From the NCBI GenBank assembly GCA_022822005.1, contig JAJECO010000023.1, positions 93,904 through 137,423 of the forward strand: a stretch of 43,520 nucleotides of DNA, written 5' to 3'. Below are positions 1,989-43,520 of the stretch, in pieces; within the stretch, counting starts at the first letter, position 1; each line of letters starts with the position of its first letter. The notes under the pieces are model-generated. The model ran no database searches and was not told the DNA's origin. It saw only the letters and a program-made list of their open reading frames with translations. Origin of the DNA: Candidatus Poribacteria bacterium (GTDB taxonomy: Bacteria; Poribacteria; WGA-4E; PCPOR2b). Position numbers and translations under genes: made by a program.

Positions 1989-4448
<2,460 letters not shown>

Positions 4449-25887: not shown

Positions 25888-27036
25888 ATGGACACGATAC
25901 CCAATCGACAAACCACTCCCAAGCACGTTCTCATCAGCGTTGTCGGACTCTCACCGCAAGTAATCACAGAAACCCTCTACTACTATTGGCACCTTGCTTC
26001 ACCACCCGTCCCAATCACCGAAGTGTTTGCCTTGACTACCCTGCATGGCAAACAGGCTTTGGAAGATACACTTCTCGGAGATGATGGAAAGCTCAAGTCC
26101 CTTTGCAGCGACTACAATCTGCCACCAATCCACTTCGATCTGGCGAATATTCAGCTCCTCACGGGTGCAGATGGACAGCCATTAGACGACATTTCGAGTG
26201 TGATTGACAACGAAGCCCTCGCAGACCAACTCTTTGCATTCGTGCGAAGGTTGGCAACCTCAGCCGATATCTGTCTACACGCCTCTATCGCAGGCGGGCG
26301 AAAAACGATGGGGCTCTATATCGGCTTAGCGCTGCAATTTTACGGCAGACCGGGCGATACCCTTTCCCATGTCCTCGTGAACCCTGAACTTGAAAATCGG
26401 GAGTTTTTCTATCCACCGCCAAACGGTGCCGATGTCGTTTTGAGCGATGGACGTACAATTCCTGCCGATGAAATTCGACTTGAATTGGCAGAAATCCCGC
26501 TCTTGCTACTTGGGGAACAGATCCCTTTTCTCAAGGACCATACCGATGCTGGCTACACGGAGTTAATTGAGATCGCTCAACGAGAGTATAATGCGTTGCA
26601 AGCGATCTCCCCTATCGTTGTTAATACATTCTCCCGTTGTTTAGAAATTGGAGAGGTTACTATCACCTTCACACCCCTTGAACTTGGGCTCTATCTGTTT
26701 TTTGCACAGCGACATTTAGAGGGGGAAGGGAACGAAAGATACTCTATTTCACGCTCTGAAATTCAGGCGAGACTTCTAACAGATGCACTCAGAGATATCA
26801 TACCTCAAATTCCCGCGCGAGATTTCCGCCTAGAGGGGTTGAAAGGTTGGGAAAGTGATCCAATTGCCCGTTTCTCTCAAACCCGATCTAATATCAACAG
26901 AAAAATTAAAGACGCGCTGGATGAATCCCAGGCGACTCACTATCAAATTCAGTCTTGGGATCCTTTATCAAACCAAAACGATATCCATTACGGGTTGGCA
27001 CTTTCCAAAAACCGTATCCACCTCCGGCTACACTGA
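25888..27036 (+). CDS. CRISPR-associated ring-nuclease/CARF protein, NE0113 (TIGR02584) family
   Basis: 382 residues. The CARF-like N-terminus has HVLISVVGLSPQVITETLYY (from residue 13) and the second nucleotide-binding motif ASIAGGRKTMGLY near residues 131-143. Together these are the hallmark of the Cas_NE0113 family, often annotated as Csm6-type ring nuclease. The C-terminal part includes RSNINRKIKDAL, a helix conserved in that family. I see no HEPN RxxxxH motif, so it is probably not itself an RNase; members of this group are thought to bind or cleave cyclic oligoadenylate. It has a good GGGAG site and reads towards cas10, but 1.2 kb separates them. Family call good; ring-nuclease activity inferred. 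Confidence 0.82.
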   Translation: MDTIPNRQTTPKHVLISVVGLSPQVITETLYYYWHLASPPVPITEVFALTTLHGKQALEDTLLGDDGKLKSLCSDYNLPPIHFDLANIQLLTGADGQPLDDISSVIDNEALADQLFAFVRRLATSADICLHASIAGGRKTMGLYIGLALQFYGRPGDTLSHVLVNPELENREFFYPPPNGADVVLSDGRTIPADEIRLELAEIPLLLLGEQIPFLKDHTDAGYTELIEIAQREYNALQAISPIVVNTFSRCLEIGEVTITFTPLELGLYLFFAQRHLEGEGNERYSISRSEIQARLLTDALRDIIPQIPARDFRLEGLKGWESDPIARFSQTRSNINRKIKDALDESQATHYQIQSWDPLSNQNDIHYGLALSKNRIHLRLH

Positions 27037-28226: not shown

Positions 28227-30930
<2,704 letters not shown>

Positions 30931-30941
30931 GGAGGAACGAA

Positions 30942-31766
30942 ATGGCAAGTATTCAGCTGCAAGGTAAGATTTTTGTCAGAGGTGAGATTAAAACCACGAC
31001 AGGACTGCACATCGGCGGTAGCGCGGGCGAATTGGACATCGGCGGTGTCGATAACCCAGTCATCCGGAACCCACTTACCCGTGAGCCGTATATCCCCGGC
31101 TCGTCGCTACGCGGCAAGATGCGGTCACTACTTGACCGTCACCTCAACCGAGACCTGAATAAATTTATCCGTCGCGGTCGTCCACAAGTCCGTGTCCACG
31201 AGTGTGATCAGTTAGCAGATTACCAATCGTGTCCGGTCTGCCAAGTCTTCGGTATCGCACCGACAGCTAACATGGGCGACACAATGCCCACCCGCCTAAT
31301 TGTCCGCGACGCGCTATTAACCGCTGCGACACGGGACCGTTTTGCCGAGATCGACACCGATATGCCCTATACAGAGGTCAAGACCGAAGTTGCAATAGAC
31401 CGTATCACTTCAGCGGCAACACCCCGTCAGAATGAGCGGGTGCCCGCCGATGCAACCTTCGGTCCCTTTGAGGTCGTTCACAGCCTCTACACCCTCAATA
31501 GCGCGCCTGCGGAGAGCATTGATCGTGAGATCGACCTCTTTGACACCGTGCTGAAGGGGATGGAACTGCTCGAAGATGACTATATCGGCGGTTCCGGGTC
31601 ACGTGGGTCTGGGAAAATCGTCTTCTGTGATCTGGAGCTAACCTTCAAGTCCCGCAAGTATTACGAAAACCCGCAGTCGGTATCCGTTATATCGCTTGCC
31701 CAAGGGGCTGGCGTTGCAGCGTTACGAGGGGCGAATTACCAAAGCCAGATTAAAGCGGCGATCTAA
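30942..31766 (+). CDS. csm3: Type III-A CRISPR backbone RAMP protein Csm3
   Basis: 274 residues, preceded by AAGGAGG. Csm3 forms the repeated backbone of the complex and cuts target RNA every six nucleotides. The N-terminus TGLHIGGSAGELDIGGVDNPVIRNP includes D37, equivalent to the catalytic aspartate D33 of S. thermophilus Csm3, so RNase activity is probably kept. RAMP glycine-rich parts are YIPGSSLRGKMRSLL and GSGSRGSGKI. A Cys-rich stretch (HECDQLADYQSCPVCQVFG) may bind zinc, as in other Csm3 proteins. Confidence 0.96.
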   Translation: MASIQLQGKIFVRGEIKTTTGLHIGGSAGELDIGGVDNPVIRNPLTREPYIPGSSLRGKMRSLLDRHLNRDLNKFIRRGRPQVRVHECDQLADYQSCPVCQVFGIAPTANMGDTMPTRLIVRDALLTAATRDRFAEIDTDMPYTEVKTEVAIDRITSAATPRQNERVPADATFGPFEVVHSLYTLNSAPAESIDREIDLFDTVLKGMELLEDDYIGGSGSRGSGKIVFCDLELTFKSRKYYENPQSVSVISLAQGAGVAALRGANYQSQIKAAI

Positions 31767-31783
31767 CCGTAGGGAGGGCTTTG

Positions 31784-32752
31784 ATGTCAATTTATGTCAC
31801 CTACTATCTCAACTTCCGCGCGTCGTTCCACCTCGGTCGGCGCGGGGTTGGGTTAGAGACAACTGAAATCTCAATTCCTGCCGATACCCTCTTTTCGGCG
31901 CTCTGTCAGATGTGGCGGACGTTTTACGAGGAGCAGAGTTTGACCGACTTTCTAACTCAATACGAAACAGACACACCGTTTCTGTTGACCTCTGCCTTCC
32001 CCTTTGCCGGTAATACCAGATTCTTTCCCAAACCGTTAATTGATCTTAATGTCAATGCGGGTGCTGACCTGAAAAAGCTGAAAAGGGTTCGCTACCTGTC
32101 CGAGCGGCGGTTCGGTCAGATTATCAATGGCGGACCGATTGCATTTGACACCGATAACCTAATCAACGACGGTCAGCTTTGGATACATGACGATGACAAA
32201 TGCCCGTCCGCTGTTTGGAACACGGAAAGGCGCCCGCGTGTAACGCTTGACCGTCAATCGTTTGCATCAGAGATTTGGCACTTAGGTGCAGTTAAGTTTC
32301 ATGAAAACTGCGGGCTCTGGTTCGATGCTAAGTTCGATACCCATAAGACTAAAGAGCAGGTCGAAACGATCCTTCGTGTGCTTGGCGATACCGGTATCGG
32401 TGGAGAGCGGAGCGCGGGGTTTGGGCTGTTTGATCTTCGTTGCCAGGCTACTGTGGTTGAATCAGCGCAGGGGACTTGTCGGTTTGTAACACTTTCGCCT
32501 ATCTGCCCGCGAGATGCTGCGGAGTTGGACCAGCTCCTTGATGGCGATGTTGGTTATACCTTAGAGGAACGGTCGGGCTGGATCGGTTCGGCTGAAGGGA
32601 GCGGTCAACAGCGTCAGAAAGTAATGGTATTTGCAGAGGGCTCGGTGTTGAGTGGGAGCGGCAAACAGGTAGGCCGTCTAATTGACCTGAAACCGTCGGC
32701 GTGTCCGCACCCAGTCTGGCGATACGGCTACGGCTGGCCCATAAAGATATAG
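31784..32752 (+). CDS. csm4: Type III-A CRISPR RAMP protein Csm4
   Basis: 322 residues from ATG 31784, with AGGGAGGG five bases upstream; the ATG follows a TTG that could be read in frame but is not needed. Csm4 binds the 5' handle of crRNA and anchors Cas10. The N-terminus reads FRASFHLGRRGVGLETTEISIPADTLFSALCQMW, typical of Csm4, and the mid-region GERSAGFGLFDL is the glycine-rich RAMP loop. Order between csm3 and csm5 supports the call. A perfect hairpin lies directly after the stop. Confidence 0.94.
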   Translation: MSIYVTYYLNFRASFHLGRRGVGLETTEISIPADTLFSALCQMWRTFYEEQSLTDFLTQYETDTPFLLTSAFPFAGNTRFFPKPLIDLNVNAGADLKKLKRVRYLSERRFGQIINGGPIAFDTDNLINDGQLWIHDDDKCPSAVWNTERRPRVTLDRQSFASEIWHLGAVKFHENCGLWFDAKFDTHKTKEQVETILRVLGDTGIGGERSAGFGLFDLRCQATVVESAQGTCRFVTLSPICPRDAAELDQLLDGDVGYTLEERSGWIGSAEGSGQQRQKVMVFAEGSVLSGSGKQVGRLIDLKPSACPHPVWRYGYGWPIKI

Positions 32753-32770
32753 ATAGTTCTTTACTATTCA

Positions 32771-32802
32771 GAAACCGAGTTTTTTCTTCAAAACTCGGTT
32801 TC
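32771..32802. repeat. Perfect 13-bp hairpin between csm4 and csm5
   Basis: GAAACCGAGTTTT at 32771-32783 is perfectly complementary to AAAACTCGGTTTC at 32790-32802, with loop TTCTTC. A near-identical hairpin occurs at 34894-34925 after cas6. With T-rich flank it might act as a partial terminator within the operon, or it may be a dispersed miniature repeat. Confidence 0.85.
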
Positions 32803-32828
32803 TTATCGCTTGATGATTGGGGGAAATT

Positions 32829-33953
32829 GTGAAATACCAACTAAAAACTATCACGCCTGTTCACATCGGTACGGGCGAAACATTAAGCCAAATTGACGGG
32901 TTCTACGACAACGGACGATGGCACCGGATTGACATTGATGCCGTACTTGCGGCGATCCCTGAATCCGAGCTAAATCAGCTTACCATTGCAATGGGGGGAC
33001 GCAACTTTCAGTGGGGAGGATACCTACCAACAAATCAGTCATCAGCGCGTTATACCCTCCCGTGCCCCGAAGATCCAGGGGAAACCGAAATCCGTGAGGC
33101 GATTAAACACCCTTCCAACCGTCCAATGATCCCCGGCAGCAGTATCAAAGGTGCGATCCGCACCGCACTGCTGTGGGACCTCATCGGTGATAGTAATCAA
33201 GAACCTTTCAAAGATTCAGTCAACTATTTGAAAGAACAACTACGCCGAAAACCGAATCGAAGTTGGGCTGGACGAGGGATTGAGCAGCGTGTGCTTGGCA
33301 AAGATCCGAACCACGACCTGATGCGCGTTATGCAGGTCAGCGATACCGCGCCGCTACCGATAACCGCTTTAGAGATGGGTATCGCGTGGACAGTTACACT
33401 CAATCAGCGCGATGAACTCGTTCAGAAACGGGAAGGTAATCGTGAGTACAAAACCTTTGCCGAACAGATCCGCGCTGACCAGACCTTCGACTTCTCAATC
33501 AAAATTGACACGACCCTTTTCCGCCAGCGTGAAAAACGCGAACTGGGATATAGTGATCTGCAGGAGCAGGTACTTTGCAAAGAACTCGCTGAAGTATGCA
33601 ATTTCGTGGCGAAAGGGCTTGCCAAAGTGGAGGCGGATTTTTACGGTCATTATAACTTGCCTGAACTTGCCAATTTCTATGAATCGCTCGCAAGCCAGAT
33701 CGAAAATCTACAGGGCGGTGGGTTCATCCTACAGATCGGTTGGGGAACGGGGTATCTCCCTAAAACGGTCACCGGGCTGTTGGCCGGGGACGATAATGAT
33801 CTGATGATGAGAGTCCGACGGCACTATCGTCTGGGTAGAAGCCTTTCAGAGGGCGATTACTACGATGAGGAATTTCCCAAGACCCGCCGGGTGCTGTATG
33901 ACCGGCAGAACCCAAAATCTCCGCTCGGTTGGGTACAAATCACACCCGCCTGA
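32829..33953 (+). CDS. csm5: Type III-A CRISPR RAMP protein Csm5
   Basis: 374 residues starting at GTG 32829 (KYQLKTITPVHIGTGE), with a GGGGG stretch five bases upstream; a TTG at 32817 is an alternative. Csm5 caps the 3' end of crRNA in the Csm filament. The N-terminal VHIGTGETLSQIDGFY and the later PGSSIKGAIRTALLWDL match the family. The C-terminus GFILQIGWGTGYLPKTV and FPKTRRVLY is also typical of Csm5. The gene is complete. A palindromic element separates it from cas6. Confidence 0.94.
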   Translation: MKYQLKTITPVHIGTGETLSQIDGFYDNGRWHRIDIDAVLAAIPESELNQLTIAMGGRNFQWGGYLPTNQSSARYTLPCPEDPGETEIREAIKHPSNRPMIPGSSIKGAIRTALLWDLIGDSNQEPFKDSVNYLKEQLRRKPNRSWAGRGIEQRVLGKDPNHDLMRVMQVSDTAPLPITALEMGIAWTVTLNQRDELVQKREGNREYKTFAEQIRADQTFDFSIKIDTTLFRQREKRELGYSDLQEQVLCKELAEVCNFVAKGLAKVEADFYGHYNLPELANFYESLASQIENLQGGGFILQIGWGTGYLPKTVTGLLAGDDNDLMMRVRRHYRLGRSLSEGDYYDEEFPKTRRVLYDRQNPKSPLGWVQITPA

Positions 33954-33970
33954 AAAATTGATTTAATCTT

Positions 33971-34033
33971 CCGTAGGGGTAACCCTTGTGGTTACCCTCG
34001 TGCTATGGGTCGGGCAAGATGCCCGACCTACGG
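33971..34033. repeat. 63-base nested palindromic element between csm5 and cas6
   Basis: Outer arms CCGTAGG (33971-33977) and CCTACGG (34027-34033) enclose two hairpins: AGGGGTAACC with GGTTACCCT around a CTTGT loop, and GGTCGGGCA with TGCCCGACC around AGA. It resembles dispersed palindromic repeats that occur in many copies in some genomes. It sits inside the cas operon, so the operon mRNA would fold here, and read-through to cas6 could be reduced. Confidence 0.75.
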
Positions 34034-34066
34034 TTGTAATCCTCTTCATTACGTGGAGGCTATCTC

Positions 34067-34834
34067 ATGCGAATCAAAATTACGTGCGACATCGGCAGGG
34101 GCATCTGCCTGCCTATCAATTACAATCACTTTCTGACGGGCGTTATCTATCAACTTATCAAGGGGACTGATCCGGAATATGCGGATTTCCTGCACCAAGA
34201 CGGCTATGAACTAGAGAATCGGCGTTTCAAACTGTTTACCTTCTCCCAACTGATGGCAGCGCAAAGACAGATTCGGGGCGATCAGATACACTTTGGTTCG
34301 CCGCTGACATGGTTTGTCTCGTCATCTCAGAAACCGTTTCTGGAAAACTTTGCCGCCTCGCTGATGCGAGACGGCCTCCTACAGATTGAACGGCATCAAC
34401 TTCAGATACAGGATGTGGAGGTGTTGTCGCAGCCTCGCTTTCGACCAAAGATGAGTTTCCGATGCCTCTCACCAATTACCATGTCCACGATGCGTGAACG
34501 AGATGGTCAACTCAGCACACACTACTGCCTCCCCGATGACCCCCAGTTCTCCGAGTTAGTTCGGCAGAATCTAATTCGGAAATACGAAGCGGTGTACCGA
34601 CAACCGCCAACGGAGGAATCGTTTGCAATGATCTTCGATCAGACGTACATCGACAAAAGGAAGGGACGTGTGACCCGCCTAGTCGATTATAAAGGTGTCA
34701 AAATTCGCGGCGTCGTCGCTCCGTTTCACGTCATCGGTGCACCGGAATTAATCCATATCGGCTATGAATGTGGATTCGGCGATAAAAATAGCGCGGGATT
34801 TGGGATGGTGGAGGTTGCAAAGAAGCGGAGATAA
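34067..34834 (+). CDS. cas6: CRISPR repeat endoribonuclease Cas6
   Basis: 255 residues with a GTGGAGG site before the ATG. Cas6 cuts the array transcript within each repeat, usually leaving an 8-base 5' handle, here AUUGAAAC. The N-terminal LPINYNHFLTGVIYQLIKG contains H21, a candidate catalytic histidine of this family, and the C-terminal glycine-rich loop is GFGDKNSAGFGMVEV. It comes 113 bases after csm5 and is the last complete cas gene before the array. Confidence 0.95.
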   Translation: MRIKITCDIGRGICLPINYNHFLTGVIYQLIKGTDPEYADFLHQDGYELENRRFKLFTFSQLMAAQRQIRGDQIHFGSPLTWFVSSSQKPFLENFAASLMRDGLLQIERHQLQIQDVEVLSQPRFRPKMSFRCLSPITMSTMRERDGQLSTHYCLPDDPQFSELVRQNLIRKYEAVYRQPPTEESFAMIFDQTYIDKRKGRVTRLVDYKGVKIRGVVAPFHVIGAPELIHIGYECGFGDKNSAGFGMVEVAKKRR

Positions 34835-34893
34835 ATCTACTTGCCAAATTTATGCTCCTTCAAATTAAACTCATGTTAAGAAACCGGACGCCA

Positions 34894-34925
34894 GAAACCG
34901 AGTTTTTTCTTGAAAACTTGGTTTC
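34894..34925. repeat. 13-bp hairpin after cas6
   Basis: GAAACCGAGTTTT at 34894-34906 pairs with AAAACTTGGTTTC at 34913-34925 (one G-T pair). The left arm is identical to the hairpin at 32771. It follows cas6 and precedes the cas4 fragment, so it could reduce transcription into the array, or be a miniature mobile repeat. Confidence 0.8.
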
Positions 34926-34982
34926 TCTGCACACTTTCCTTTTATTTGAAACTCAAATCAAACCGGAGGAGAGGACACATTT

Positions 34983-35147
34983 ATGCAAACCGAAACCCGT
35001 ACCACCGGTCGCGTTACCGGCACAATGATCAGCTACCTCCACGTCTGCCCACGACAACTCTGGTTCTTTCAGAACCACATCGAAATGGAACACACCTCAG
35101 ACCGCGTCTCTATGGGGCGATTGCTACAGGAGGAGAGTTACTTTTAA
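34983..35147 (+). pseudogene. cas4: cas4, N-terminal fragment joined to the first CRISPR repeat
   Basis: ATG 34983 has a strong GGAGGAGAGG site and opens a 54-residue frame. It reads TGRVTGTMISYLHVCPRQLWFF and IEMEHTSDRVSMGRLLQEES, then YF and stop. This is the start of Cas4: the first iron-sulphur Cys in HVCPRQLW, and the EHTSD/V..GRLL..ESY segment. The frame ends because CRISPR repeat 1 begins at 35141, inside the Tyr codon. The rest of Cas4 (RecB-type nuclease motifs and the other three cysteines, usually about 120 more residues) is missing, so it cannot be functional. No cas1 or cas2 follow. Deletion by recombination into the array is the simplest explanation; an assembly join is the alternative. 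Confidence 0.85.
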
Positions 35148-36553
35148 TCGTACCATTGTGGAATTGAAACGCTGCTACGAGAGCCTTGTCGCTTTTATCA
35201 AGGATTCTTTTAATCGGACCAGTATGGAATTGAAACCCGAGCAAGTAAGCGGCGATTGAAGCGATTGCGAAGCCTTTTAATCGTACCATTGTGGAATTGA
35301 AACCCACGAGGGCAGATAGTTAGGGAAGGTTTTGAATTCTTTTAATCGAGCCATTGTGGAATTGAAACACGGGAACGTTAGTCCGAAGGTGGTAGCTGAC
35401 CTCCTTTTAATCGAACCATTATGGAATTGAAACGGTTCCGGAGTGACTACTGTGTTGTCGGTCGAACATCTTTTAATCGGACCATAGTGGAATTGAAACA
35501 AAACAAGGTGACGGATGCCACTGTTGTCTAGGTCGCTCTTTTAATCGGACCATTGTGGAATTGAAACTCTGCTAATCTTGCGAAGCGGGGATTTTCTCTC
35601 CACCCTTTTAATCGAACCGTTGTGGAATTGAAACATATCAAGTAAATCCTTGTGCGGCGCGAGGTGAACGCTTTTAATCGCCCCATTTTGGAATTGAAAC
35701 ATCTCAGGGGGACGCCTCCGAGGAGAATCCTCGCGCCTTTTAATCGGACCATAGTGGAATTGAAACAAGTAATGTTCAATCATTGGAACAACATATTCCA
35801 AACTTTTAATCGGACCATAGTGGAATTGAAACACAAAAGGCACGAAAGCATCAGGGGTTTTCTCACTTGCTTTTAATCGAACCATTGTGGAATTGAAACT
35901 TCTCATTGTCTGTTAAATTCGCACCCATCCGTTCCACTTTTAATCGGACCATAGTGGAATTGAGACCCTGCCGAAGACTTCGGTCCGTACGGGGAATTTC
36001 CCCTTTTAATCGGACCATTGTGGAATTGAAACGTGCAACCGGAAACGTCTAAATTCTGGCGAAGACCGACTTTTAATCGTACCATTGTGGAATTGGAACT
36101 GGTGACCGACACTGTCCGGATGCCGCGTTTTCCATATCCTTTTAATCGGACCATTGTGGAATTGAAACAGCGGATGCCATAGGTTTGGCAGGGTGTACGG
36201 AGTGTCTTTTAATCGGACCATTGTGGAATTGCAACGGTTTTTGAAATGTGTTGTTTAATACTGAGAATTTAGCTTTTAATCGCACCATTATGGAATTGAA
36301 ACGCTTGATCTTTCAGATTGATCAGCGAATGACCAACGCTTTTAATCGCCCCATTGTGGAATTGCAACGTCTCTAATTGGGTGCCAATCCCTATTCCACC
36401 AATCTTTTAATCGCCCCATTGTGGAATTGAAACGTGCCATGCCATTGATGCCTTGCTCAAAGAGTAAGTCTTTTAATTGACCCATAGTGGAATTGAAACC
36501 TTTTTTCGGTGATACCAATGGAGGTTCATCACCCGCTTTTAATCGAACCATTA
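35141..36553 (+). CRISPR. CRISPR array segment A, 22 repeats (last one truncated)
   Basis: Thirty-base repeats with 21 spacers of 35-39 bases. Layout: CTTTTAATCG at positions 1-10, two variable bases, CCA at 13-15, three variable bases, TGG at 19-21, and AATTGAAAC at 22-30. The ATTGAAAC end implies transcription to the right and an AUUGAAAC crRNA handle. Within this segment, positions 11-12 are TA, GA, AA, AG, CA, CC or AC, and 16-18 are TTG, TAG, TTA, GTA or TTT. Handle mutations occur in repeats at 35937, 36070, 36206 and 36339. The final copy (36536-36553) stops after position 18. No leader is present: repeat 1 is joined to the cas4 fragment. Confidence 0.97.
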
Positions 36554-36572
36554 TTGAAATGGAGGTCTTGCA

Positions 36573-36893
36573 ATGACGCAAAGCACTAATTGTGAAGGTG
36601 GTTCGCGCTGTACTTGTGAGCGTCCTCATGTCTGCTCAAAAGAAATAGCAATCATGGACCTCGAGGTAGTGACTCAAGAGGATTTAGACCGCTCCGAGGA
36701 GGCGGCGCGCTTATCGGAGCGCGAACATGGACTCAGATCCTTTGAGGCTTGTCGAGATCGCCGATTACACAAAATGTATTGGGTTCGCCAGTGTATTCTC
36801 GAGTGCAAATCCCAAGGGGAAGAGGTGCCATGGCCTGTGCTGGATTGGCTCTTTAATACCAGACCTCCTACACGTGAACAGTTCATGAAATAG
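36573..36893 (+). CDS. Unrecognised Cys-containing small protein encoded inside the CRISPR array
   Basis: 106 residues between array segments A and B. TGGAGG lies eight bases upstream of the ATG, directly after the truncated repeat. The N-terminal part has five Cys within 22 residues (NCEGGSRCTCERPHVC) suggestive of a metal site; then an acidic helix (EVVTQEDLDRSEEAARLSERE) and a basic/aromatic C-terminal part (CRDRRLHKMYWVRQCILECK, PWPVLDWLFNTRPP). No family is recognised. A short GGGC/GCCC stem and TTTTT follow the stop. The frame and site suggest a real gene. Its place could reflect a cargo gene, a CRISPR-associated accessory factor or an insertion, none of which can be chosen here. Confidence 0.6.
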   Translation: MTQSTNCEGGSRCTCERPHVCSKEIAIMDLEVVTQEDLDRSEEAARLSEREHGLRSFEACRDRRLHKMYWVRQCILECKSQGEEVPWPVLDWLFNTRPPTREQFMK

Positions 36894-36978
36894 GGCCGGT
36901 GCCCCGTTCCCTTTTTAGCACGTGCTTTCATCGGGAGCCTTGAAGTGGATTGCCGTATATCGCAGCGGATCTAGCCCA

Positions 36979-37074
36979 CTTTTAATCGAACCATTGTGGA
37001 ATTGAAACTTGAGGATATGGGCGAAGTCGTCGCAGTCTTGCCGTCTTTTAATCGAACCATTGTGGAATTGAGAC
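36979..37074 (+). CRISPR. CRISPR array segment B, two repeats and one spacer
   Basis: Repeat 36979-37008 is the form with AA at 11-12 and TTG at 16-18. Repeat 37045-37074 is the same but ends ATTGAGAC. One 36-base spacer (37009-37044) separates them. The unit is isolated between two protein genes. Confidence 0.95.
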
Positions 37075-37110
37075 TCCTCTAAAAATCTGATATTTTTTGT
37101 AATGTCAAAA

Positions 37111-37138
37111 TTGTGCATTGTTGAGATATGAGTATACT
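37111..37138 (+). promoter_or_regulatory. Possible promoter for the second array-embedded gene
   Basis: TTGTGC at 37111-37116 and TATACT at 37133-37138 are spaced by 16 bases, a partial sigma-70-type match. It would place the transcript start just before the GGAGG ribosome site of the 37161 gene, and it argues against the earlier ATG at 37128 as the start. Confidence 0.4.
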
Positions 37139-37160
37139 ATTCCCTTGGAGGTGGCTTTTA

Positions 37161-37643
37161 ATGGCTAATACCAACAGATCCACCATATACGATCTGACTA
37201 AGGCAGTAGAAAAGTGCAATTCGATTATGGCTTCTAATCTTCTGCATGAGGGGGTGGTTGAGGAGGGGGAAGATTTGCCGCAGCTTGACTCTTCCGTTCG
37301 TATTTCTATTGAAACAACTGTTGGTTGGATATATGAGAAAATGTGCCTGCTTCTTAAAATGGAGACAGCGAAGTGGGCGTATATTGAGTTGTTATCCCCT
37401 CTCAAAAATCTCTGGAAAGACATGCAAGAAGAGGAGAAATTACAACCTCGTTTTTCTAATCAACCGCACCATTTGTGGGATATCTCTTTTCAGGAGGCAA
37501 AGAAATTGCTTCCGGCGCTAAAGGATGAATATCCCCGGAAAAAGAATGGCGAGTACCTTGTTTTTCTGGGCACCTTATCGTCTCTATGTTTTCTGGGACT
37601 TATCTATGCTCTGAATGAAAAAAGCATAGAGGAACTGGCTTGA
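37161..37643 (+). CDS. Unrecognised small protein with C-terminal membrane segment, inside the CRISPR array
   Basis: 160 residues from ATG 37161, with TTGGAGG nine bases upstream; the frame also opens at 37128 but without a ribosome site. The N-terminal two thirds is helical and soluble-looking (TIYDLTKAVEKCNSIMASN, then TTVGWIYEKMCLLLKMETAK). A probable transmembrane helix follows near the end, YLVFLGTLSSLCFLGLIYAL, with a short NEKSIEELA tail. No known family is recognised. It has a possible promoter before it and a hairpin with T-run after it, so it looks like an independent unit. Codon use is more AT-rich than in neighbouring cas genes. Membrane accessory proteins are known in type III systems, but a link here is inference. 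Confidence 0.65.
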   Translation: MANTNRSTIYDLTKAVEKCNSIMASNLLHEGVVEEGEDLPQLDSSVRISIETTVGWIYEKMCLLLKMETAKWAYIELLSPLKNLWKDMQEEEKLQPRFSNQPHHLWDISFQEAKKLLPALKDEYPRKKNGEYLVFLGTLSSLCFLGLIYALNEKSIEELA

Positions 37644-37658
37644 TTTTGAGATTATTGA

Positions 37659-37693
37659 ACAAGGATAGGCATTAGTGCCTGTGCTTGTTTTTT
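37659..37693 (+). terminator. Intrinsic terminator after the membrane-segment protein gene
   Basis: ACAAGGATAGGCA (37659-37671) pairs with TGCCTGTGCTTGT (37676-37688) with one mismatch and one G-T, a TTAG loop, then a T-run to 37693. Confidence 0.8.
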
Positions 37694-37752
37694 ATTGCAT
37701 CCTACTCTATCTGTTTACTCCATCAAATCTCATATTTTTTCACAATGTCAAC

Positions 37753-38430
37753 CTTTTAATCGCCCCATTTTGGAATTGAAACACCGCCCCATAAACAACA
37801 GCTTTTTCCGAAGCATTCCTTTTAATCGGGCCATAGTGGAATTGAAACGCATTTTTTCCGCCGGCGATAAGACCGCTTGCCAATCTTTTAATCGCCCCAT
37901 TGTGGAATTAAAACCTCGGTGCCGCCGGAGCGGCGTGGTAGTGGTGCTCTTTTAATCGAACCAGTATGGAATTGAAACATTGCGAAGTGGTAAATCTCGC
38001 GGGGGTGAATCACGCTTTTAATCGAACCAGTATGGAATTGAAACGAAGCCTTGCGACTACCAACAATTGCAATGCCTTCTACTTTTAATCGCCCCATTGT
38101 GGCATTGAAACACCGCATGGCGGAGCTGCGGAAGATACTCAATGAATACTTTTAATCGCCCCATTTTGGAATTGAAACTGTTCAAGAACCCCAAAAATAT
38201 AAGTGCGAATTCCTCCTTCTAATCGCCCCATTTTGGAATTGAAACTCTTACCACTATCCGTCCTCAACTGTCAAAGAAACCTTTTAATCGAACCATTTTG
38301 GAATTGAAACTCTTACCACTATCCGTCCTCAACTGTCAAAGAAACCTTTTAATCGAACCATTGTGGAATTGAAACGTCTTATCGGCTACCCATTCGATAG
38401 TGTCTACCTCTGCTTTTAATCGAACCATAG
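37753..38430 (+). CRISPR. CRISPR array segment C, 11 repeats (last one truncated)
   Basis: Ten full repeats plus a truncated copy at 38413-38430, with ten spacers of 34-37 bases. Repeat forms are mixed as in segment A: CC with TTT or TTG, GG with TAG, AA with GTA, TTT or TTG. Single changes include ATTAAAAC (37885 copy), GGCATTG (38082 copy) and CTTCTAATCG (38216 copy). One spacer (TCTTACCACT...CAAAGAAAC) is present twice, at 38246-38280 and 38311-38345. The last repeat ends after position 18, as in segment A. An AT-rich stretch precedes the first repeat. Confidence 0.97.
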
Positions 38431-38468
38431 AGGTATCGGTATAATCGAGGCTAGGAAGCCCCTCCCAC

Positions 38469-38566
38469 GGTGCCCAATGGATCGGGCAACTACAATAAGG
38501 CCTAGTTTGTAGTAGGGTAATTTATCGCCCGTCCGGACGCGCAATGAATTGCGCTACTACGAACTG
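38469..38566. repeat. Nested palindromic repeats after array C
   Basis: GTAGTAG at 38509-38515 pairs with CTACTAC at 38554-38560 and encloses GCGCAAT-GA-ATTGCGC (38539-38554). Just before it, GCCCAATGGATCGGGC (38472-38487) and ACTACAA/TTGTAGT (38489-38495 / 38507-38513) form similar stems. The architecture matches the element at 33971. Confidence 0.65.
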
Positions 38567-38596
38567 AAGGGCGTGACTCCTATTGGAAACAAAAAA

Positions 38597-38633
38597 AGCC
38601 GATGGAACAAGAAAGTTCCACCGGCTCTTTTTA
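38597..38633. terminator. Bidirectional intrinsic terminator between array C and the Card1-like gene
   Basis: AGCCGATGGAAC (38597-38608) pairs with GTTCCACCGGCT (38615-38626) with one mismatch. A-run before it (38590-38597) and T-run after it mean it can stop transcripts from both sides: the rightward array and the leftward gene ending at 38827. Confidence 0.85.
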
Positions 38634-38826
38634 TTTATCGCTATAGAATTATTTTAGATAGACAATTTTCTCAGATGCTACGGATTTTTGTAGGCGTAAT
38701 CATGCCCCCCATAATGCCTAAGCGTCAATCCACCATCATCAACCGTACAACTGACGCGGATAGCTTGAGTAACCCGAAACGTATGGATACCTTTTTAGCG
38801 GTTCCTGATTGTGAAACGTAGTGTGT

Positions 38827-39918
38827 TCACTCCCAGTCGAAGGTAGTACGTATGTATTGATTAAACGTTTGCTGGAGACAATACCAAGTATCCTTTCCCC
38901 AAATTTCTAAGGGGAGGCTTGGATGCCCTGTCTCCTCCTTCAGTTCCGCTTGGATAAGTTGCTGGGCATTTCGCGAAGCACCGGAGAGTACAATGGACCG
39001 TGCTTCAACGCCACCGAGTTGCCTCATCCGTAAAATAGCCTCCATCCCTTTTCGTTTAACTATCTCATGTTTAGCAGAAACGGTGCACGAAACCACGACA
39101 ATTTGATATCCCAGTACCGCGACTACATCAAGTTGAAAAGGTTTAACACTTGCGTCTGTCGCATTGGCTCGCCGCACATATACCGAGTGAAAGAGTTTAT
39201 AATTTTTCCGATCTGGGCTCTGCCGATAAACATCCGCCAAGGCGTGTTGGAAGGCAGCATACGCACCGTACTCAAGAAGATGGGACTCAGATTCATCAAT
39301 AAATCTGCCGAGGGCGTTATAGCCATCGGTCATCTGTCCTTCAGTGAGGGTCCCAGGGGCGGGATTGTCACTCGTCTGATAGTTACCCGATTTATCCCAG
39401 TATTCATAAGGAAATGGACCGATTTCAAAGCCGTTGATTTCAGCAATGCGACGCAGACACGGCTCAATCCCCTTGCGAGTATCGGAGACTAAGGCATTGC
39501 CCTCCCGGTCTACGAGGGTCGCGCCTGAATCAGCACGTGGATCCAGATAGGAGGTCTCTAAGTCAATCGGTTCTGATAAAGCAACTGTTTCTGCAGCGGC
39601 AACGGTTTCAACACACATCACCTTGGTGCCGCCAGTATAGTGCACATGAATGCAAGTGATATTGTCTGGTAAATTCTCCTTGAGATTTCGTGTAATGTCG
39701 TTGCGTACGGTAGATGGGTTCCCCGACACCGTTTCAACAGCGTCAATAGCAAATATGTTGCGACTATATTTCAATAACCGGTCCCGTTCGGACCTAGTTT
39801 CCTCCGTATGTACAAGTCGTACATGAATCGGGTTTAGCAGCTTATCTTTCAAATGATGCAGTGCTACCCAGACGGGCAGTGGATTGGTGCCAACTGTAAG
39901 AATGAGAAGTGTTCCCAT
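38827..39918 (-). CDS. CARF plus PD-(D/E)xK protein, Card1/Can2-like, with altered active site
   Basis: 363 residues from ATG 39918 (a weak CGGAGA site upstream; the frame also opens at TTG 39948). The N-terminal CARF domain has LLILTVGTNPLPVWVAL and VHYTGGTKVMCVE, expected for cyclic-oligoadenylate binding. The C-terminal part looks like a PD-(D/E)xK nuclease of the DUF1887/Card1 group: Glu in HLLEYGAYAAFQ (about residue 216), LDVVAV with D264, then VVVSCTV. In active relatives the last motif is ExK or similar; here Ser277 and Thr279 take those places, so nuclease activity is doubtful unless another lysine from SAKHEIVKRKG serves. It is predicted to be a signal-activated effector or an inactive sink for the signal. 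Confidence 0.75.
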   Translation of the reverse strand: MGTLLILTVGTNPLPVWVALHHLKDKLLNPIHVRLVHTEETRSERDRLLKYSRNIFAIDAVETVSGNPSTVRNDITRNLKENLPDNITCIHVHYTGGTKVMCVETVAAAETVALSEPIDLETSYLDPRADSGATLVDREGNALVSDTRKGIEPCLRRIAEINGFEIGPFPYEYWDKSGNYQTSDNPAPGTLTEGQMTDGYNALGRFIDESESHLLEYGAYAAFQHALADVYRQSPDRKNYKLFHSVYVRRANATDASVKPFQLDVVAVLGYQIVVVSCTVSAKHEIVKRKGMEAILRMRQLGGVEARSIVLSGASRNAQQLIQAELKEETGHPSLPLEIWGKDTWYCLQQTFNQYIRTTFDWE

Positions 39919-40146
39919 TGCGGAAGTTTCTCCGTTTGTTACTGTCAAAATGATTACTGTTGATCTTGTATTGTCCCATCTTCAGGGATTCTTGGACGGT
40001 GTAGGTGAAGCAGAAACGAGCGAAGCGGAAGTTTTGGAACATGGTAGGGATTGGGTTCTTATTTTTTATCAACAAAACCTATGAAGCTTCAGCAAGTTCT
40101 TGAAAAATTGGCCTTTTTTGCAACAATAACCACATGAGTCTTTCAA
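39919..40146 (-). other. Gap between the two CARF genes
   Basis: 228 bases with no clear gene. Short open frames run in both directions, without ribosome sites. It probably carries the promoter or leader of the Card1-like gene. Confidence 0.4.
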
Positions 40147-41595
40147 TCAAAATGGAGTAATAAATTCATATTGCTTGTTGAAAGTAGACGCATTAATACA
40201 TGCAAGTTTTTGAGCTTTTTCAAATCGTTCTTCGACAGTCGCTTTAAACGCCTCGAATTTTTTATCATCAATCATGCTCATACCATGGGCGTAAACACTC
40301 TCATTTCGTGTCTCAATTTGGTTCCGAAATTTGCCCCAATCTAGGCTTTCAACAATATCATCAGCCAGGGCGTATAAAACGAAGAATCCGTCAATCAACC
40401 CAATTGGAGCAGGAAGAGTCGATCTGTCCATGTGTGTAAAGGCTGCCTTCCGCTTTTCCCCATACAGATCGAAAAGTTTCTTCTCGTTAAATTTAGAATA
40501 ATCAGGACTACGAGTATCGATTCCTTGCTGTGCAAGGCGGTGCTGTCCAATCCATTCCAGAAGCCGATACAGAATTAGACATGCTGTGTCAAATTTTCCC
40601 TGCGCTGCTCGACGGAGTGCCTTGTGATAAAGTGTATACGCAAAGTGAAAGCCATGAGGAGCGAGGAGTGCATATTGCGAATCTCTGACAATTTTCCGCA
40701 AACACCCCAACGCCTTCTTTTGTTCAACAAGACGGGGGAGAAAAGTACGGAGATGGCTTAACTCTTCTGGTAATGAAAATTGATTAAGGAGATCCAACAG
40801 CTGCTGCGAGAATTTTTGAGCTTTGCCAATGTTAAGATTATCCCACGCTTCGTAAGCTGTGCAGAGGTAACTGTATGCCTCATAAGTTTTAGCTTTGTTG
40901 GCATCACCTACCTGTCCTCTAAGCTGATCAAAAATACGTTGTGCACCAGCGTAATCATGTTCTGCGTAGAGAGATTTCGCTTTATCAGCCTCTATATCAC
41001 CAAACACGGTGTAAGGGTTATCCAAAAGATTCAAGTACTCACTGCCCGGTTCAGGCTTGTTGCCCAATTTCGGGTGGAATTGGGTATTGTCAATATAATA
41101 GATGTCAGCATTAAGCACAGTGCCTGCTAGTGTTGCGCCGCTAACCATCGACTTTTTGCCACCGGTGATATCCACAGCGATATTCGCAGGGCGGTTCCAA
41201 TCCTCGTAAAGTGCCATGATTGTTTTGTAGATCTCGGTAATGTCACTCCCGTCAATTTCGCGCGAATAAAGTTCAGAGATTCTCAAGCCAGTTTCCTCTT
41301 GGATTCGATCAAGTACCCCCTTTGTCCTTTGCGTATAAAGCAAACCGACTCGTTGCGGTTGTATGGTGCATATAGAAAGGATCAGCGGTTCAGGGGACGA
41401 GCCAACAGTCAAAATCAATCCGTCATATTGTCTCCCCTCTGGTGGGCGGTTTTCCGGTTTAGCGAGGAACACCTCTTTGATAAGCGGAAAAATCTGCTTG
41501 TCGTAAAAATTGCTCGCTGCTGCTCGCTTTTTGTCGTCGGAGCGATCCATATTCTTCCATCTTTTGATGAGATTATCAAATTCAGATTGGCACAT
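40147..41595 (-). CDS. CARF-HEPN ribonuclease, TIGR02710/Csm6-like
   Basis: 482 residues with AAGGAG before the ATG. The CARF part has LILTVGSSPEPLILSI (Gly65 region) and VDITGGKKSMVSGATL (GGKKSM 145-150), typical of the TIGR02710 family. The middle is helical. The C-terminal HEPN domain has RNESVYAHG with R430, N431 and H437, the RNase catalytic signature. Csm6/Csx1-type proteins degrade RNA non-specifically when CARF binds cyclic oligoadenylate. All key residues seem intact. It is leftward, 47 bases downstream of the next gene to its right, and likely shares its promoter. Confidence 0.88.
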   Translation of the reverse strand: MCQSEFDNLIKRWKNMDRSDDKKRAAASNFYDKQIFPLIKEVFLAKPENRPPEGRQYDGLILTVGSSPEPLILSICTIQPQRVGLLYTQRTKGVLDRIQEETGLRISELYSREIDGSDITEIYKTIMALYEDWNRPANIAVDITGGKKSMVSGATLAGTVLNADIYYIDNTQFHPKLGNKPEPGSEYLNLLDNPYTVFGDIEADKAKSLYAEHDYAGAQRIFDQLRGQVGDANKAKTYEAYSYLCTAYEAWDNLNIGKAQKFSQQLLDLLNQFSLPEELSHLRTFLPRLVEQKKALGCLRKIVRDSQYALLAPHGFHFAYTLYHKALRRAAQGKFDTACLILYRLLEWIGQHRLAQQGIDTRSPDYSKFNEKKLFDLYGEKRKAAFTHMDRSTLPAPIGLIDGFFVLYALADDIVESLDWGKFRNQIETRNESVYAHGMSMIDDKKFEAFKATVEERFEKAQKLACINASTFNKQYEFITPF

Positions 41596-41642
41596 TATGT
41601 TTTTTCTCCTTCTTATACCCTCTCCAAATTCAAGCGTACCAT

Positions 41643-42362
41643 CTAAGGAATGACTTGGGTCACCTGTCCACTTTCATTGACTGCTTGCACTCTTAGCTTA
41701 GCCTGTGCTCCAACCAATCCTGGATAATAAGGACGCTCAAAGACAACTTCTTCTGTGTAACTGGTCTGCAACTGTACCATTACCTTCATCCCATCCTTCT
41801 TCAGAATCGTCGCGTTCACGCGGTCACCAACTTTGAATCTCGGCTTCTCGGGTTGCGGGGGAGGTTTGGGAATCTGCGTTGGTTGCGATTTCGGCGTTGA
41901 TCTCGGTGCACGTTGTTCCTCGGTGGCACGCTTTGGCTCAACACGATAATAGCACATCAACCGCAGAATTGCTGTCAAAGCGGATAGGCGGAGTTGATTC
42001 AACGTTTTGATCTCGGACCGGAAACCGTTATCGTAGCCAAGACAGAACGCAATTGCCGAAGCGGTCAGCGCATGGTCAGCAACCGTTGCCCCCGGGAGTG
42101 AACGGCACGGCAACCATCGGAATGGAAGCTGATCTCTCTTTCCTTTCCACAAAGTCGAAAGGGGCGGAAGGAGTAGGTTGATTATGCAAGAGACACGTCC
42201 CGTGATGTCTTGTTCAGGCAAACTGCGAACATGCTCGGCAGTCTGCTTGACCACAGTGCTCCAATCCTCCTGCGTGATACCAAATCCATCTTTGAGAATT
42301 AGATCTTCCCAGCAATAATGGGCATTCTTGGTCGGTTCACCTGTTTTCCAGTCTCGTGTCAT
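41643..42362 (-). CDS. Unrecognised CRISPR-locus protein with C-terminal S1/OB-like domain
   Basis: 239 residues; first gene of the leftward unit, with a weak AGGA site eight bases before the ATG. The C-terminus (about residues 175-239) reads KPRFKVGDRVNATILK, then MKVMVQLQTSYTEEVVF and VGAQAKLRVQAVNES, an S1/TRAM-like OB-fold that would bind RNA. A Pro-rich linker (PKSQPTQIPKPPPQPEKP) joins it to a helical N-terminus including VADHALTASAIAFCLGYD and LRLSALTAILRLMCYY, which resembles the HD-domain region of Cas10-type proteins but lacks the HD pair. I know no characterised family with this fusion. Position next to a CARF-HEPN gene suggests an accessory role in the type III system; this is inference. 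Confidence 0.65.
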   Translation of the reverse strand: MTRDWKTGEPTKNAHYCWEDLILKDGFGITQEDWSTVVKQTAEHVRSLPEQDITGRVSCIINLLLPPLSTLWKGKRDQLPFRWLPCRSLPGATVADHALTASAIAFCLGYDNGFRSEIKTLNQLRLSALTAILRLMCYYRVEPKRATEEQRAPRSTPKSQPTQIPKPPPQPEKPRFKVGDRVNATILKKDGMKVMVQLQTSYTEEVVFERPYYPGLVGAQAKLRVQAVNESGQVTQVIP

Positions 42363-43031
42363 AAACTTATCCTGTTTTTACTAAACCTATAGTGGTTAAA
42401 ATTAGATCTATTCAGTTCAACGAAAAGGTTGGAAACGATTTCATCCGAATTAGCAAATGAGGGTACCCGTCATTACGTACATATCCTGAACACTATGCAA
42501 TTTCTAACACATATAACATAGCACGACACCATAGGGATATCAACGCTTTTTGTGCGTGCCAAGAAAATCGCGTGTACAAAGGACATCTACAGGAAGTGTC
42601 ATTCCCCCGAACCTAGACAGTTGAATAAGATAGATTTCCGACTGCCAAAACGATCGGCATCTATACGAAGAAATGGCTTAACGCCAACAAAAAAAGGAGT
42701 GTTCATGCTATGTCCCGCAGAAGGCAGTCCCATTCTGTCTAAAGGATGGGGGTAAGTATAGACCAACCTCTTATAACGGGGCTACGACAAGGGTTTGAGG
42801 CATTTTCACGTCGATGGTGAGTTGTCAACCCCACTTTCTGCGATAATTTTCTTGATCCATGAAGCAGCTTTTCTGCTCAATTATTCCGATTTTGGAGCGT
42901 AACCGTGCGGTGTCGTCAACCTCCCGTCAATTTTGCACAACCGGACGTTGACGACTTTTGATAGAAAGGGTGATTTTTTCCTTGTAGCAATAGCGCGGGT
43001 TTTGTACAATATTTTTTGCCGATTGGTCGGG
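42363..43031. other. Region between the leftward effector genes and array D, including its leader
   Basis: No gene is supported; a 67-residue rightward frame at 42552 lacks a ribosome site and recognisable content. The left part should hold the promoter of the leftward unit. The right part (about 42940-43031) is the probable leader of array D. Confidence 0.5.
42982..43010 (+). promoter_or_regulatory. Probable leader promoter of array D
   Basis: TTGTAG at 42982-42987 and TACAAT at 43005-43010 with exactly 17 bases between them; the -10 is a 5/6 match. Transcription would start about 15 bases before the first repeat at 43032. The following ATATTTTTTGCC is also similar to the AT-rich stretch before array C. 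Confidence 0.55.
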
Positions 43032-43520
43032 CTTTTAATCGAACCATTGTGGAATTGAAACTAATTCAATGTTGCGAGAAACTCTATATCCCGATCTTCC
43101 TTTTAATCGAACCATTGTGGAATTGAAACTATATTCGGGCGGGTGGGCTTAATCCCCAAAGAAACGGCTTTTAATCGAACCATTGTGGAATTGAAACTAT
43201 TTCAATGAAACCTTGAACGTCTTGAGCGGTGGCCTTTTAATCGAACCATTGTGGAATTGAAACATATTGTGGGCTTTGGCAAGTGCTAATAACAATTTGC
43301 CTTTTAATCGAACCATTGTGGAATTGAAACCTGGTGTTGTCTTTCTACCATTCTTCCCTCGATGTGGCTTTTAATCGAACCATTGTGGAATTGAAACTAT
43401 ATTCGGGCGGGTGGGCTTAATCCCCAAAGAAACGGCTTTTAATCGAACCATTGTGGAATTGAAACTCTTCTGAATCTTCCGGCAATGCATCCATGAATAG
43501 ATCTTTTAATCGAACCATTG
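43032..43520 (+). CRISPR. CRISPR array D, identical repeats, runs off the window
   Basis: Seven full 30-base repeats plus 18 bases of an eighth cut by the window end, with seven spacers of 36-38 bases. All repeats are identical: AA at positions 11-12 and TTG at 16-18. This is the same repeat family as in segments A-C, so it probably uses the same Cas6. The spacer TATATTCGGG...GAAACGG occurs twice (43130-43167 and 43398-43435). Uniform repeats and a nearby leader suggest it is the younger or active array. Confidence 0.98.

Follow-up and report, generated by a model that had tools for sequence, protein, structure and literature searches.

There are CRISPR-Cas loci that have no adaptation module, some of which use machinery in trans (PMC8092290, PMC12669027). 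In-trans spacer uptake between CRISPR types has been shown experimentally in Flavobacterium (PMC8092290). Type VII loci have no adaptation module and carry many repeat substitutions, which were read as a mark of rare spacer uptake (PMC12669027, the 2025 classification), and exchange of modules is known in type III (PMC6452270).

The window analysed here, a stretch of 43,520 nucleotides, comprises bases 93904-137423 of contig C77 (137423 bp) in a 6.0-Mb assembly of 97 contigs which is 97.78% complete. As the window reaches the last base of the contig, its right end is the contig end. It holds a CRISPR locus of a Poribacteria-related bacterium without spacer-capture genes, which is a known type of decay with unusually clear anatomy, and a literature search on Poribacteria and CRISPR gave no paper on it. 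Taken as a whole, it is probably a rearranged type III-A locus, derived from a joint III-A/I-B ancestor, which lost its adaptation segment, had its leader displaced and is left with interference only. Bacterial genomes were scanned with the 54 residues of the cas4 stump described below and two loci matched, both named Poribacteria: OY282444.1 (L007, the 5.16-Mb complete chromosome of genus member G005) and JAJEAL010000088.1 (L006, from G003). The features of the window are as follows, with G002 being another member of the genus.

25888-27036 (+): CARF accessory gene (NCBIfam cas_NE0113, 'ring nuclease Csm6', 7.7e-53; PADLOC CARF5)
28227-30518 (+): cas10/csm1 (TIGR02578, 3.6e-160), with HD (LLHDIGKF) and palm (AGGDD) motifs in the translation
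30481-30930 (+): csm2 (PF03750, 2.9e-30)
30942-31766 (+): csm3 (TIGR02582, 2.6e-66)
31781-32752 (+): csm4 (TIGR01903, 3.5e-73)
32817-33953 (+): csm5 (TIGR01899, 5.4e-38)
34067-34834 (+): cas6 (TIGR01877, 5.6e-41), 79% amino acid identity to L007
34835-34982 (+): interval between cas6 and cas4, occupied in relatives by cas8-cas7-cas5-cas3 (about 5.5 kb); contains a hairpin element at 34892-34926
34983-35147 (+): cas4 stump of 54 codons; cas4-derived up to 35141, with its final codon and stop provided by repeat 1
35141-36565 (+): array A, 22 repeats of variant sequence, no leader; the last repeat is degenerate and overlaps the ribosome-site region of ORF106
36573-36893 (+): ORF106, no family, 92% amino acid identity to the ORF at the same site in G002
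36979-37074 (+): another two repeats with a single spacer, lying between ORF106 and ORF171
37128-37643 (+): ORF171, no family, present in one of six genomes of the genus, this one
37753-38442 (+): array B, 11 repeats, the last one degenerate
38586-38791 (-): C-terminal remnant (206 bp) of an APE2256-type CARF gene; the full gene follows the array in relatives
38827-39948 (-): CARF-PD(D/E)XK nuclease-type gene (PADLOC), similar in DNA to the G005 copy
40147-41595 (-): CARF-HEPN gene (TIGR02710, Csm6/Csx1-like)
41643-42362 (-): Csx21-like type III accessory gene (PADLOC, 6.1e-7)
42762-42776 (+): cas2 tail, the last four codons (TNLL) and stop, with only silent differences from L007
42777-43031 (+): leader of array C, homologous to the one that follows cas2 in L007
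43032-43520 (+): array C, seven identical consensus repeats and a partial one, cut by the contig end

The joint between cas4 and the first repeat of array A had been described in an earlier note on this DNA, according to which cas4 is cut at repeat 1 and the first base of the repeat serves as the third base of a Tyr codon. This description is confirmed to the base by the coordinates and by alignment to two relatives. The frame 34983-35147, preceded by the ribosome-site-like stretch GGAGGAGAGG, translates as MQTETRTTGRVTGTMISYLHVCPRQLWFFQNHIEMEHTSDRVSMGRLLQEESYF followed by a stop. It matches Pfam PF01930 (Cas_Cas4) with 6e-13 over profile positions 1-42 of 160, and the best PADLOC family is Cas4b (1.8e-16). 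Repeat 1 (CTTTTAATCGTACCATTGTGGAATTGAAAC) occupies 35141-35170; the TAC (Tyr) codon of the cas4 frame takes its third base from the C of the repeat, which then supplies Phe and the stop TAA. When the three cas4 starts (window, L007, L006) were aligned, homology ran through GAGAGTTAC and no further in the window, so that homology with both intact relatives ends exactly at base 35141, with at most one base of shared sequence at the joint. The conserved N-terminal block of Cas4 with the first cysteine is present in the stump (PF01930 positions 1-42), and the nuclease motifs and the three C-terminal cysteines are missing along with profile positions 43-160, which were not found elsewhere in the assembly. 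In the Cas4 family these motifs and three of four cluster cysteines fall in the missing part, and the stump as it reads would be without nuclease function.

The two relatives show what once followed cas6. The order in L007 is csm, cas6, cas8, cas7, cas5, cas3, cas4, cas1, cas2, leader and 74 repeats, followed by a CARF gene on the opposite strand; L006 has the same order up to cas1, inside which its contig ends. This Poribacteria III-A/I-B locus has the upstream gene order, the repeat, the leader and the start of cas4 in common with the window. In contrast, both relatives keep cas8-cas7-cas5-cas3-cas4-cas1 (L007 also cas2, leader and array); in the window, cas6 ends at 34834 and the start of cas4 follows directly at 34983. 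An assembly-wide DNA search with bases 4430-11930 of L007 (cas8 to cas2, 7.5 kb) returned only 132 bp of cas4 at 88% identity; the type I-B genes cas8, cas7, cas5 and cas3 are absent from the window and, at the DNA level, from the assembly. The earlier note was right that the rest of cas4, cas1 and nearly all of the cas2 of the locus are missing, and this holds assembly-wide in profile and DNA searches, only the last four codons of that cas2 being left in the window. As the I-B effector genes were lost too, the loss is larger than first thought. A sensitive tblastn search for remnants of cas1 and cas2 in 35141-42762 gave nothing above noise. The second Cas4-like match of the genome (C54) was rejected as Cas4, being a DUF2779 RecB-like protein.

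An imperfect palindrome (AGAAACCGAGTTTTTTCTT...AAAACTYGGTTTCT) lies at 34892-34926 and again at 32769-32803, each time in an intergenic gap of the operon, and has many copies scattered across the genus. Since one copy stands between cas4 and cas1 in L006, the palindrome could have mediated deletions.

Cas1 (PF01867) gave no match in the assembly, in which gaps at array ends remain, and matches were obtained in 9 of 14 control genomes. Cas1 is thus likely, though not certain, to be absent from the genome, judging by the assembled sequence, since the contig stops within array C and the array on contig C93 is cut where G003 has a reverse transcriptase and Cas1. That contig (L062 1-14706) carries a second CRISPR locus, separate from the window, with the repeat GTTTGGAAGAAGTTTCCCGNTTGAAGGGAATTGAAAC and with Cas2, Cas6-, Csx1-, Cmr5- and Cmr6-like genes (the Cmr naming being a reading of translations) and no Cas1. 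Its full Cas2 lies at C93:9396-9611, and the contig begins (C93:1) inside the III-B-like array, on the leader side. In G003 (L043, contig C135, 5342-8178) an array with the III-B-like repeat type is immediately preceded by genes for a reverse transcriptase and Cas1. The suggestion in the earlier note that the locus may live on adaptation genes elsewhere is unsupported in the assembly, which has no Cas1 and one Cas2, that of the III-B-like locus; both kinds of array break contigs.

It is possible, though we would not expect it, that adaptation works in trans, with array C being served by a Cas1-Cas2 hidden in a gap, such as that of the III-B-like module. This would be compatible with the main anatomy. 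Array C has a leader and identical repeats, the III-B-like locus has its Cas2, and in G003 the reverse transcriptase and Cas1 stand just before the leader end of an array with the same repeat type, in the part that is cut off here at C93:1; in-trans uptake between types is documented, moreover (PMC8092290). Nevertheless, the assembly is without Cas1, and the repeat of the III-B-like locus differs from that of the window.

The leader had been thought deleted as well. There is none at the joint of array A, where the cas4 stump stands directly upstream of the first repeat instead, but BLASTN and alignment place it at 42777-43031, directly upstream of the first repeat of array C. The L007 segment after cas4 matches the window at 42762-43034 with 75% identity over 278 bases (E 1.6e-42), and the leader is a single copy in this genome. 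The cas2 tail in front of it reads ACC AAC CTC TTA TAA. Both ends of the lost segment are found in the window, cas4 residues 1-53 (34983-35141) and the cas2 tail (42762-42776), 7.6 kb apart; arrays A and B, the two family-less ORFs and CARF genes lie between them. In G003, one leader-array unit stands alone beside unrelated genes. Within array C one spacer occurs twice, at 43130-43167 and 43398-43435.

The place of arrays A and B was judged by comparison with G002 (L039). There the same chromosomal site contains only an internally deleted cas6, three repeats, of which one is degenerate, and ORF106; next to these lies the gene found behind the CARF gene in L007. The degenerate last repeat overlapping the start region of ORF106 is an arrangement common to the window and G002 (L039 8572-8933). 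The relic in G002 resembles the window in its site, in ORF106 and in a cas gene (there cas6) that ends in a repeat giving its stop codon, and differs in that all csm genes and most of the array have been lost too. Since G002 keeps cas6, repeats and ORF106 at this site and a CARF remnant follows array B, arrays A and B occupy the place of the old array, and it is the unit of cas2 tail, leader and array C that is the displaced part. ORF106 and ORF171 (106 and 171 residues) gave no match in Pfam, PADLOC or PHROGs. G001 (L040) was considered as a further loss and set aside as uninformative, since its contig stops before the place expected for cas4 and cas1; it has a relic array of degenerate repeats between csm5 and cas6 (2940-3220) and, after cas6, a different gene set that is type I-like from reading of the genes.

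In arrays A and B (35141-38375) the 30-base repeat has 62 substitutions among 33 full copies, in 14 combinations, and positions 11, 12 and 16-18 account for almost all of them. By comparison, all seven repeats of array C are identical, as are 71 of the 74 in L007; variant repeats in A and B and identical ones in C are as expected if only the leader-proximal array was recently renewed. In a putative fold that pairs positions 2-8 with 23-29 and 13-15 with 19-21, and was drawn after the variation had been seen, 54 of the 62 changes are unpaired; computed folds of the repeats are weak and differ among the variants. If the putative fold holds, one may suggest that the repeats of A and B drifted yet stayed readable by Cas6. 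Repeat orientation was set by the position of the leader in L007, not by Rfam, in which two repeats match CRISPR-DR2 on the minus strand. In array B one spacer is found in two neighbouring units (38246-38280 and 38311-38345), and arrays A and B share no spacer with array C. As for the claim that array A would need a promoter upstream, no promoter-like site is indeed seen before it; however, the promoter and terminator scan of 33950-35400, which found none, had a count below that in shuffled sequences and so carries no weight either way.

That the effector module stays intact is borne out: the families of Csm1-5 and Cas6 were found, with frames open and conserved. Cas10/Csm1 with its HD and GGDD palm motifs stands in one operon with csm2, csm3, csm4 and csm5, as in type III-A. 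The frames of Csm3, Csm4, Csm5 and Cas6 are open with dN/dS of 0.08-0.21 to relatives, values that are pairwise and in part reflect the time before the loss; in the lineage of the window, about 38 silent and 23 replacing changes have accumulated in cas6. Among the CARF genes, the one at 38827-39948 has 83% DNA identity to the G005 copy (L065 8726-9874), which lies beside a Cas10-encoding locus, and this identity suggests that such genes have moved from one CRISPR locus to another. The APE2256-type CARF gene is also present in full, with its neighbour, on contig C22.

Taken together, these observations would fit, in the simplest account we can offer, a history in which the ancestor was a joint III-A/I-B locus of the order csm-cas6-cas8-cas7-cas5-cas3-cas4-cas1-cas2-leader-array. 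Comparison with the relatives suggests that a single deletion took the I-B genes. Tandem duplication or transposition would have brought a unit of cas2 tail, leader and array to a position downstream of the CARF genes; as no spacer is common to A/B and C, an exact recent tandem duplication is less likely. A further deletion would have reached from within cas4 to the 5′ edge of one of the inner repeats of the old array, removing the rest of cas4, cas1, cas2 and the leader at the original site. Three joints are needed by this model, namely cas6/cas4, cas4/repeat and the one of a sequence X with the cas2 tail. The present state is most likely interference-only type III-A, in which Cas6 would cut the array transcripts, the Csm complex would use the crRNAs and the CARF nucleases would be switched by cyclic oligoadenylate from Cas10. 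New spacers would no longer be gained, or only at array C given an unassembled Cas1-Cas2, and transcription of array A would depend on read-through out of the csm-cas6 operon or on an unrecognised promoter.

The main rival to this history is a chimeric contig, which could be joined falsely at 35141 or 42762, the analysis having used the fragmented assembly. The true genome would then have the intact order, with false joins between cas4 and the repeat and between the CARF region and the cas2 tail, and with the rest of cas4, cas1 and cas2 unassembled. We regard this as unlikely. The contig does end inside array C, arrays break contigs in the genus (repeats stand at several contig ends in G003) and both joints involve pieces of one ancestral segment. 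But the cas4/repeat joint offers an assembler no overlap of more than one base to follow, neither the missing 1.8 kb nor the 5.5-kb I-B genes have left a remnant in any contig, and at the same site G002 has undergone a different loss that is larger still.

As to how the deletion in cas4 came about, Cas1-Cas2 cuts at the 5′ edge of the repeat, and the joint lies on exactly this edge. By chance this would be met at about 2 of 66 positions (~3%), counting one repeat-spacer period and one base of ambiguity, and in G002 the end of cas6 likewise lies no more than about 7 bases from the 5′ edge of a repeat. There is only a small chance, in our estimate, that the adaptation enzymes themselves caused the break and that integration, by failing or running in reverse, removed the integrase's own genes.

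The version in the earlier note, a single recombination between cas4 and a repeat that deleted the rest of cas4, cas1, cas2 and the leader and nothing more, agrees with the clean joint on a repeat edge. It is nonetheless very improbable as a complete account, and refuted as such unless the contig is chimeric, since the cas2 tail and leader persist 7.6 kb downstream; the I-B genes, whose loss falls outside it, are gone as well. That the stump is instead a retained small protein with its own function, such as a decoy or regulator derived from the N-terminus of Cas4, is hardly credible. It keeps a start, a ribosome-site-like sequence and a pairwise dN/dS to relatives of 0.21 over 44 codons, but of the features known in the Cas4 family it lacks the nuclease motifs and three of four cluster cysteines, and no other genome of the genus has this 54-residue ORF. 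Its lineage-specific changes, 2.5 silent and 3.5 replacing where the two relatives together have 9.5 and 2.5, point to relaxed constraint, with numbers far too few for proof.

The genus holds three states of the locus, intact, half-lost as in the window and almost wholly lost as in G002 at the same chromosomal site. Such states within one genus make a clear record of an adaptive immune locus becoming fixed, and array C with its kept leader makes spacer gain in trans by such loci testable. Like other adaptation-less type III-A loci, the window has the Csm effector, Cas6, CARF accessories and arrays and no cas1 or cas2; unlike them, it leaves both ends of the broken segment readable, with the joint on a repeat edge. 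The likeness to type VII is an analogy only, as the effector there is Cas14 and that of the window is Csm/Cas10.
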